DNA from: an uncultured Alphaproteobacteria bacterium
GTDB lineage: Bacteria > Pseudomonadota > Alphaproteobacteria > Methylaequorales > Methylaequoraceae
NCBI GenBank assembly: GCA_902595755.1
Contig: CACJRF010000012.1
Coordinates: 1-32,010, forward strand
Length of the DNA stretch: 32,010 nucleotides
Reading direction: 5' to 3'
Shown: positions 27,561 through 30,547 of the stretch, in pieces
Position numbering within the stretch: the first letter of the stretch is position 1
How the letters are laid out: the number at the start of each line of letters is the position of its first letter
Made by a program: the position numbers and the translations under genes
The notes under the pieces: generated by a model
What the model saw: the letters and a program-made list of their open reading frames with translations, nothing else
What the model was told of the DNA's origin: nothing
Database searches by the model: none

Positions 27561-28007
27561 ATGAAACTTACATCAAAAGGAAGAGCTGCAGTTACATCGT
27601 TAGTTGATATGTCATTGAATATTAATGATGGCAATCCTGTAAAACTTTCTGATATATCAAATAGACAAAATATATCTGTAAACTTTTTAGAACAGATATT
27701 TTCATCTTTGAAAAAGAAAAAAATAGTTAAAAGTATAAGAGGTCCTCTTGGAGGATATATGTTTGAAAAAAACCCAGAGTCTATTTCTATTTATGAGGTT
27801 ATAAGAGCTATAGATGAGGATTTTAAAATTAATAGATGCAATGGTCAGGGAATTGGTTGCTACTCGAAAGGTCATAACTCTAAATGCTTGACACATAATT
27901 TGTGGCATGAACTAACCAATCATATATCAATTTTTCTTCATTCAATATCAATTGAGGATGTGAAATATAACAGGGTAGATTTTAAAAACAAATTATTTAA
28001 TGGATAA
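27561..28007 (+). CDS. iscR: IscR, Rrf2-family iron-sulfur-sensing regulator
   Basis: A winged-helix repressor that senses Fe-S status and controls the isc genes. The 148-residue protein has the Rrf2 DNA-binding half (KLTSKGRAAVTSLVDMS, ISVNFLEQIFSSLKK, VKSIRGPLGGYMF) and three Cys plus one His in the sensor loop: Cys93, Cys100, Cys109 and His112 (CLTHNLW). E. coli IscR has the same residues spaced Cys-x5-Cys-x5-Cys-x2-His to bind [2Fe-2S]; here the gaps are x6 and x8, so the loop is longer but all ligands are kept. It lies between cysE and iscS, 28 bases before the latter. A second possible Rrf2 identity (RirA) is less likely given the isc context. Confidence 0.93.
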   Translation: MKLTSKGRAAVTSLVDMSLNINDGNPVKLSDISNRQNISVNFLEQIFSSLKKKKIVKSIRGPLGGYMFEKNPESISIYEVIRAIDEDFKINRCNGQGIGCYSKGHNSKCLTHNLWHELTNHISIFLHSISIEDVKYNRVDFKNKLFNG

Positions 28008-28035: not shown

Positions 28036-29253
28036 ATGAATAATATTAATAACATATACCTCGATTATCAAGCAACGACACCAGTTGATAAGAGAGTAAT
28101 CGATAAAATGCTTCCGTATTTCGGTGAAATTTATGGTAACCCACACTCTAGAAACCACTCCTTTGGATGGGAAGCGGAGCAAGCAGTAGAAGTTGCAAGG
28201 GAAAATGTTGCAAATATAATAGGTGCAAACCCTAAAGAAATTATATTCACCTCAGGCGCTACAGAATCGAATAATTTAGCAATTAAGGGTTTGGCTGATT
28301 TTTATGGAGATAAGAAAAATCATATCATAACGTGTGTTACCGAGCATAAATGCGTTCTTGAATCTTGTAGACTTCTCTCTGAAAGGGGTTTTGAAGTTAC
28401 TTACCTACAAGTAAACAAAGATGGCCTTATTGATTTAAAGGATCTTGAGTCGAAAATAAATGACAAAACTCTTTTAGTTTCAATAATGGGTGTACACAAC
28501 GAAATAGGAGTAATACAACCGCTAAAAGAAATTGGTGATATCTGCAGGAAAAATAGTGTTTTTTTTCACACCGACTGTGCACAAGCAATAGGTAAAATCA
28601 AGATAAATGTTGATGAAATGAATATCGATCTATTAAGTATATCCGGTCACAAAATATACGCTCCAAAGGGTGTCGGTGCTTTATATGTAAGGCGTAAACC
28701 GAGAGTCAGAATTTCAGCTATGATGAGTGGGGGAGGGCAAGAGAGAGGAATGAGATCTGGCACACTTTCACCTGCATTATGTGTAGGCTTGGGTGAGGCT
28801 TGTAGAATTTGTGCTGACGAAATTGATGAAGAATCCAAAAGAATAACAAAGCTGAAAAATATCCTTCTAGAGGGTATTCATGGTGAATGTGATGATATTT
28901 TTATTAATGGCTCCGAAACGGATAGAGTTCCTGGAAATATCAACCTAAGCTTTGCCTATGTTGAGGGAGAATCTCTAATGATGGGAATTAAAAATCTTGC
29001 TGTATCTTCTGGTTCGGCTTGTACGTCAGCCTCTTTAGAGCCATCATATGTTTTAAAGGCACTTGGTGTCTCAGAGGAATTAGCACACACAAGTTTGAGG
29101 ATAGGTATAGGAAGATATACATCCGAGAAAGATGTTCGTGACGCTGTGAAAGTAATTGTTAATGAAGTTAAAAGATTAAGATCACTCAGTCCACTCTGGG
29201 AAATGGCCCAAGAAGGTGTGGATATTAGTAAAATAAAATGGGCATCGCACTAA
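28036..29253 (+). CDS. iscS: Cysteine desulfurase IscS
   Basis: IscS takes sulfur from cysteine as a persulfide and passes it to IscU and other acceptors. The 405-residue protein is near E. coli size (404). It has [11 protein letters not shown] at the start, [10 protein letters not shown], the PLP Lys206 in [32 protein letters not shown], and the persulfide Cys329 in [10 protein letters not shown]. The C-terminus [21 protein letters not shown]-type ending (quoted part: [10 protein letters not shown]) matches the IscU-docking tail of E. coli IscS. It is preceded by iscR and followed 24 bases later by iscU, which has its own strong ribosome binding site. Confidence 0.98.
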
Positions 29254-29277: not shown

Positions 29278-29661
29278 ATGGCATATAGTAAAGAACTTTT
29301 AGATCACTACGAAAACCCAAAAAATGTTGGATCTCTCGATAAAGCATCCGAAGACGTGGGCACTGGTCTAGTTGGAGCCCCTGCATGTGGTGATGTAATG
29401 AAGCTTCAAATTAAGGTTAACGACGCAGGAATAATAGAAGATGCAAAATTTAAAACATTTGGTTGTGGGTCAGCTATCGCATCAAGTTCATTGGTTACTG
29501 AATGGGTAAAAGGAAAAAAAATTGACGAGGCTAATTCTATTAAAAACACTGAAATAGCCACACACCTTGCACTTCCTCCTGTTAAAATTCATTGCTCTGT
29601 CTTAGCAGAAGATGCAATTAAAGCTGCGATTGAAGACTATAAGAAAAAAAATAAAAAATGA
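29278..29661 (+). CDS. iscU: IscU, iron-sulfur cluster assembly scaffold
   Basis: The scaffold on which [2Fe-2S] clusters are built with sulfur from IscS. The 127-residue product has the three ligand Cys in standard positions: Cys37 (APACGDV, with Asp39), Cys63 (FGCGSA) and Cys106, plus His105. The HscA-recognition motif LPPVK is at 99-103. Its TGA stop overlaps the iscA start by four bases (ATGA at 29658-29661), so iscU and iscA are translationally coupled. Nothing departs from the family. Confidence 0.98.
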   Translation: MAYSKELLDHYENPKNVGSLDKASEDVGTGLVGAPACGDVMKLQIKVNDAGIIEDAKFKTFGCGSAIASSSLVTEWVKGKKIDEANSIKNTEIATHLALPPVKIHCSVLAEDAIKAAIEDYKKKNKK

Positions 29662-29981
29662 TAACCCTTACTGATAATGCAATTCATCAAATAAGGAAAC
29701 TAGTTTTATCTAGGAAAAACAAACCTCTTGGAATCAAGCTAGATATTGAAACAAAAGGTTGCTCAGGTCTTACCTACAAACTTGAATACGTCGATAATCC
29801 ATCAAAAGATGATGAAGTTGTAAATATTGAGGATCTTAAAATCTATGTAAACCCGAAGGCCTCATTATTTTTAATCGGAACACAGATGGATTATCAAGAG
29901 GGTGAGCTAGAGTCAGGTTTTAAGTTTATAAATCCTAATGAAAAAGGCAGATGTGGTTGCGGTGAATCTTTCCATGTTTAA
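29658..29981 (+). CDS. iscA: IscA, A-type Fe-S cluster carrier
   Basis: A carrier that takes clusters from IscU and delivers them to apo-proteins, or handles iron for [4Fe-4S] assembly. The 107-residue protein has the three conserved Cys: Cys35 (KGCSGLTY) and Cys99/Cys101 in the C-terminal CGCGESF. Other family features are LTDNAIHQIRKL and GIKLDIETKGC. It overlaps iscU by four bases and precedes hscB by eight. ErpA or SufA could look alike, but the operon position supports IscA. Confidence 0.97.
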   Translation: MITLTDNAIHQIRKLVLSRKNKPLGIKLDIETKGCSGLTYKLEYVDNPSKDDEVVNIEDLKIYVNPKASLFLIGTQMDYQEGELESGFKFINPNEKGRCGCGESFHV

Positions 29982-29989
29982 TTAAATAA

Positions 29990-30547
29990 ATGGGGAAAAA
30001 ATGCTGGAATTGTAAAGCAGAGGTATTGCCCAAAGATTTTTTTTGTAAATTTTGTAAAAAAATTCAAGAAAATGTTGAGATCGACGAGTTCGAAATCTTT
30101 TCAATGGATAAAAGTGTTTTTATAAATCTAGATTTATTAGAAAAAAAACATTTAGAACTTCAAATGACTTTTCATCCTAACAAATTTATTAGTTTATCAA
30201 AGAGAGAGATAGAAATATCCAATAAGTACTCTTCAAAAATAAATGAAGCTTATAATACACTAAAAAATTATGTTAACAGAATAAACTTAATTCTTATCAA
30301 ATCAGGAGTTTCTATTACTAATCATAATGAAACATATAAAAATAGTGAGTTGCTTGAAGATATTATGGAAATTCAAGAGGAATTTATGTTTGCCGAAATT
30401 GATAATAAAAAAAAAATCAAAAAAAGAATAAAAAAATTAATTGATGAAATCTTGCTTGATACCGAAGAATTATATAAAAAAGGTGATTATAACCAAATGT
30501 TAAACAATAGTATTAGATTATCTTATTTAAGTAAAATCTTAAACTAA
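29990..30547 (+). CDS. hscB: HscB, J-domain cochaperone, with HPN in place of HPD
   Basis: HscB binds IscU and stimulates the ATPase of HscA. The 185-residue protein starts with a zinc ribbon (Cys5, Cys8, Cys19, Cys22), a feature shared with human HSC20 and many alphaproteobacterial HscB proteins. The J-domain (about 33-100) includes FEIFSMDKSVFINLDLLEK, then FHPNKF, and INEAYNTLKN. The signature His-Pro-Asp reads His62-Pro63-Asn64 (codons cat cct aac), a change that in other J-proteins usually destroys Hsp70 stimulation. The C-terminal part (about 115-185) is three-helical, as expected for the IscU-binding domain. It lies between iscA and hscA, 17 bases before the latter. Its identity is secure; its J-activity is uncertain. 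Confidence 0.92.
   Translation: MGKKCWNCKAEVLPKDFFCKFCKKIQENVEIDEFEIFSMDKSVFINLDLLEKKHLELQMTFHPNKFISLSKREIEISNKYSSKINEAYNTLKNYVNRINLILIKSGVSITNHNETYKNSELLEDIMEIQEEFMFAEIDNKKKIKKRIKKLIDEILLDTEELYKKGDYNQMLNNSIRLSYLSKILN

Follow-up and report, generated by a model that had tools for sequence, protein, structure and literature searches.

The window, as the whole stretch of DNA analysed is called here, comprises 32,010 bases and is an entire contig (G000:C12) of a genome of 1.30 Mb, 87.5% complete and divided over 36 contigs. At its right end the genes iscR, iscS, iscU, iscA, hscB and hscA were found in this order (Table 1), which includes the iscU-iscA-hscB-hscA succession used to recognise an HscB orthologue. 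The operon analysis covered the window and 20 regions of relatives, chosen from 30 loci supplied for the relatives and the window: one from the sister species, two from other families and 17 from family members with an HPD motif in HscB, the set also used for column analysis. The LPPVK motif recognised earlier in the iscU product is present, and the rest of the HscB frame is intact with its IscU-binding residues kept. HscA had likewise been taken for intact; this holds for its first 482 residues, the remainder lying beyond the contig end at 32,010 (the HscA frame of the sister species measures 594 aa). In IscA, residue 65 is Asn, while Asp is found there in 17 of 17 HPD family members; this is a further genus-only Asp-to-Asn difference in the operon.

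Table 1. Coordinates of the isc genes and of the segments of HscB in the window.
Feature	Position	Strand	Remarks
iscR-type regulator	27561-28007	+	
iscS	28036-29253	+	
iscU, HscB client	29278-29661	+	with LPPVK motif
iscA	29658-29981	+	
hscB	29990-30547	+	185 aa; N-terminal tetracysteine, HPN J-domain, HSCB_C domain
HscB N-terminal segment, residues 1-31	29990-30082	+	Cys5, Cys8, Cys19, Cys22; human-HSCB-like putative metal site
HscB J-domain region, residues 32-105	30083-30304	+	placed by comparison with E. coli HscB and human HSCB
HPN codons CAT CCT AAC	30173-30181	+	equivalent to E. coli HscB 32-34
HSCB_C domain, IscU-binding by homology	30341-30544	+	Leu122, Met126 and Tyr179 align with E. 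coli L92, L96 and F153
hscA, first 482 codons, ended by contig end	30565-32010	+	Arg167-equivalent kept

The HscB orthologue and its motif

The hscB product matched the HSCB_C family (PF07743) with 32.1 bits, above the cut-off of 22.1, and its best match among solved structures was human HSCB (3bvo, E value 1.9e-15). The NCBIfam model TIGR00714 was narrowly missed (44.3 bits against a curated cut-off of 46.75), so that orthologue status rests on descent and synteny and not on this model. Its ancestry, its place in the operon and its C-terminal domain mark the protein as an HscB orthologue. In E. coli, the three hydrophobic residues L92, L96 and F153 are reported to contribute most to the binding of IscU (PMC3040723); these positions are Leu, Met and Tyr here and in 17 of 17 family members. 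No second HscB was found in the 87.5% of the genome that is present, which gave a single HSCB_C match. An AlphaFold model built from two sequences (mean pLDDT 56.8) was too weak for use.

At its N-terminus HscB carries a tetracysteine motif (CWNC...CKFC) like that of human mitochondrial HSCB (3bvo). None of the four cysteines is lost in the window, in the sister species or in any of the 17 family members aligned. The motif, noted also at loci L022 and L030, extends to HscBs of two other alphaproteobacterial families; it may have a bearing on the origin of the domain in mitochondrial HSCB. The HscB match of one further genome (L029, G017:C23) has an in-frame TAG and a frame without the first Cys pair, possibly through decay or assembly error.

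Reading of the sequence and its translation confirmed that residues 62-64 are His62-Pro63-Asn64, HPN replacing HPD, with the residue numbers as in the original prediction. Its base range, 30176-30184, was off by three and spans Pro-Asn-Lys; the codons lie upstream, with CAT at 30173-30175, CCT at 30176-30178 and AAC at 30179-30181. HPD had also been called invariant, which is true of most J-proteins and not of E. coli DjlB and DjlC, which have HPE (PMC13254874). HscB scored 13.8 bits with the DnaJ model PF00226, below the cut-off of 27.8, but an HPD relative (G003) also missed it with 24.1 bits, and the model therefore detects this family poorly. Carrying HPN in place of the HPD tripeptide that defines a canonical J-domain, the protein is best called an HscB orthologue whose J motif is non-canonical, and not a canonical J-domain protein.

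Distribution of the motif and selection on hscB

HscB loci were extracted and aligned from a scan of 60 relatives' genomes. In the family sample of 32 genomes, the window's own included, HscB was recovered from 28, with HPN in two and HPD in 26; the four genomes without a recovered HscB (G013, G024, G028 and G029) are 54-79% complete. HscB loci from two other families of the class (G032 and G057) have HPD. Seven further genomes outside the family (G036, G037, G040, G043, G049, G050 and G055) also gave HscB matches; the motif count covers the loci named before. The two HPN proteins come from both sampled species of the window's genus, and Asp occupies the position in 17 of 17 HPD family members of the column analysis. 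The sister species, Pelagibacteraceae bacterium TMED13 (NHBS01000038.1), has an HscB 76% identical to that of the window, with Asn and not Asp at the motif.

A sequencing error, aac for gac, had been proposed as one explanation. The sister record is metagenome-assembled, with an ambiguous base in the adjacent Pro codon that leaves Asn unaffected, and the window's genome is split over many contigs; these features would favour error. Against it, Asn is encoded by AAC in the window and by AAT in the sister, in two species and on two contigs. The same first-base error in two separate species is not credible, sequencing or assembly error can in practice be dismissed, and Asn was most likely fixed in the common ancestor of both species.

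A pattern for HPN in an HscB context had matches in nine of 385 genomes of the class and in 12 of 398 of the phylum; when the matched loci were scanned with profiles, an HscB was recognised in the window alone. As a control confined to the class, the same pattern with HPD gave unscreened matches in 58 of the 385 genomes. Since the pattern detected only seven of 13 class-sample genomes with an HscB match (G000 excluded) and so misses many HscBs, the result speaks for rarity and not uniqueness, and HPN HscBs elsewhere may have been missed. A loose family pattern matched 32 of 32 genomes and is uninformative beyond the size of the family. The scan of genome contigs returned, besides the sister (L032), a J-domain protein that is unrelated (L033), that of viral contigs no match and that of plasmids distant HscB-like matches only. 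In the available portions of the open-licence literature no report of a natural HPN HscB was found. DnaJ and a second J-protein of 156 aa in the window's genome keep HPD; among the J-proteins found there the change is, to judge from their sequences, confined to HscB.

Selection was assessed between window and sister with a Nei-Gojobori script. The dN/dS ratio was 0.143 for HscB and 0.117 for HscA (481 codons), next to 0.076 for IscA, 0.041 for IscR, 0.030 for IscU and 0.010 for IscS; HscB is under purifying selection. The identity within the genus pair, 76% for HscB and 81% for HscA, matches that of pairs in an HPD genus (g8), one of which has 76% and 81%. A tree was made of 17 taxa, namely the window, the sister and 15 of the 17 HPD members, leaving out L036 (contig-truncated) and L040. 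The stem of the genus accounted for 8.2% of the tree for HscB, comparable to 6.8% for HscA and 8.9% for IscS, thus giving no sign of HscB-specific decay. In HscB only two of 48 conserved columns (at least 80% conserved among the 17 HPD family members) had genus-unique changes, that of the motif Asp (D34N in E. coli HscB numbering) and Phe to Tyr162. Decay of hscB to a pseudogene was rejected on the intact frame, the dN/dS ratio and the lack of branch acceleration.

The J face is 75% identical within the genus pair and the C domain 78%. HPD genus g8 has a J face more conserved than its C domain (84-89% against 69-80%), but a second HPD genus, g9, resembles the HPN genus with 51-74% against 54-69%, which makes any hint of J-face relaxation in the HPN genus weak at most.

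The partner surface of HscA

In the DnaJ-DnaK pair, Asp35 of DnaJ is reported to form hydrogen bonds with Arg167 and Gln378 of DnaK (PMC8215388), and DnaK R167H to suppress DnaJ D35N (PMC5519331, PMC7289447). The HscA of the window keeps Arg167, Asn170, Thr173, Leu391, Asp393 and Pro419 (DnaK numbering), as does that of the sister. The suppressor R167H is absent from HscA in both, and suppression of this type was rejected since the Arg167-equivalent is kept. At the Gln378 position, His was found in the HscAs of the window, the sister and all 16 HPD family members whose sequences reach this far; DnaK, the HscA and HscC of E. coli and two HscAs of other families have Gln. With His378 also in HPD members, the family changed the second Asp contact before the motif, and this is not a matching change; to judge by its distribution, Gln378-to-His could be permissive for HPN.

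The original prediction had allowed for an HscA that compensates for HPN, and in its strongest form this explanation has a change in HscA rendering the motif fully active. Six genus-only changes among 222 conserved columns of HscA, and a His in place of one of the two residues touching the HPD Asp, would fit. However, none of the six lies at R167, N170, T173, Q378, L391, D393 or P419, no matching change was found among the contact positions compared, and His378, being family-wide, does not track the motif. The rate of change is similar to that of IscS (nine of 310 columns), so there was no sign of a compensatory burst. Such compensation is very unlikely.

Explanations for the retained HPN motif

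The reading tentatively preferred, at a little under even chances, is that an HPN J-domain at the level of the genus is tolerated by a dedicated HscB-HscA pair, with a coupling that is probably weakened. The D-to-N substitution would have been fixed in the marine alphaproteobacterial ancestor of the genus and then kept. HscB would bind IscU through its C-terminal domain, present it to HscA and so position the J-domain on HscA, where Asn64 may retain a hydrogen bond, without the charge, to the Arg167-equivalent and His378. Stimulation of the HscA ATPase would then be weakened and not lost, a residual stimulation presumably persisting. With HscB and HscA devoted to each other and to a single client, client-driven synergy and tethering may offset the weaker J signal and make HPN tolerable. 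The different Asn codons, the purifying selection, the kept IscU-binding and HscA contact residues and the operon context favour weakened coupling. A possible precedent, by analogy, is yeast Jac1, reported to have gained robustness to mutation on specialising with Ssq1, a dedicated Hsp70, with interface expansion proposed as an offset for HPD substitutions (PMC6006194). Against this reading, none of the systems tested retained Hsp70 stimulation after D-to-N, according to PMC8215388 and PMC13254874, and Jac1 with HPD changed to AAA is reported not to rescue a JAC1 deletion (PMC6006194). The known suppressor is also absent, and the J face is no better conserved than the C domain. It is somewhat doubtful, yet well conceivable, that the HPN J-domain is a working one in nature, with an HscA of normal Arg167 driven by an Asp-less co-chaperone; the charge contact between Asp and Arg would then be dispensable in a dedicated pair, perhaps after the permissive Gln378-to-His change in the family.

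Another possibility foreseen in the original prediction is that HscB has no J activity and is only a tether or protector of IscU, HscA cycling on its basal and IscU-stimulated ATPase. Published texts describe D-to-N as a standard loss-of-function change (PMC8215388, PMC13254874) and Jac1 as protecting Isu1 from degradation, not necessarily with its J-domain (PMC13254874). The kept IscU-binding residues point the same way, as does a J face that in the genus pair does not surpass the C domain in conservation. HscA is, however, conserved at the residues facing the HPD loop, both species retain His, Pro and the flanking LQ...HP.KF, and no HscB-specific acceleration was seen. A role as tether only is for these reasons not favoured and is the less probable reading, while ranking, as far as the sequences can tell, not far behind weakened coupling. 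It is unlikely that HscA receives its J signal from another J-protein, with HscB merely delivering IscU: DnaJ and the 156-aa protein do keep HPD, but the same two kinds of J-protein occur in HPD relative G003, hence are nothing new here, and PMC13254874 and PMC9596805 present HscB with HscA, and Jac1 with Ssq1, as exclusive partners. Asn might finally be reverted to Asp, by deamidation or by A-to-I editing at the first base of AAC or AAU, a single event sufficing for either codon to be read as Asp. Known bacterial mRNA editing prefers a UACG context, compared with UAAC here, and Asn-Lys deamidates slowly, both of which count against a reversion that is in any case highly improbable.

With the HscB/Hsc20/Jac1 co-chaperones, such as E. 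coli HscB and human HSCB, the protein of the window shares the isc operon setting, the HSCB_C domain and the IscU-binding hot spots, and with human HSCB the N-terminal tetracysteine; it differs in having HPN where these have HPD. E. coli DjlB and DjlC, which work with the divergent Hsp70 HscC, are likewise natural deviations at the HPD Asp, and HscC also keeps Arg167, but their HPE retains the charge that HPN loses, and HscC keeps Gln378 where the window's HscA has His. The type IV J-like proteins (Pam16, DNAJB13 and the P. falciparum type IV JDPs) have an altered HPD as well, and are defined by a recognisable J-domain with a non-conservative HPD change (PMC13254874). In HscB the HPD is altered too, but by a single conservative substitution, D-to-N, and the gene of its partner, hscA, lies directly downstream. 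Laboratory DnaJ D35N is this very substitution at the equivalent position (PMC5519331, PMC7289447); unlike the D35N/R167H combination, the change in the window is natural and shared by the genus, and the Arg partner is unchanged.

Whether HPD deviations reflect accident or selection is called 'enigmatic' in a 2026 review (PMC13254874). The Asp of HPD is regarded as required, and D-to-N is the usual route to a dead J-protein. A genus that retains this substitution in a single-copy hscB beside hscA offers a natural test of the requirement: either a dedicated pair can do without the Asp, or HscB has a role worth retaining that is independent of ATPase stimulation.
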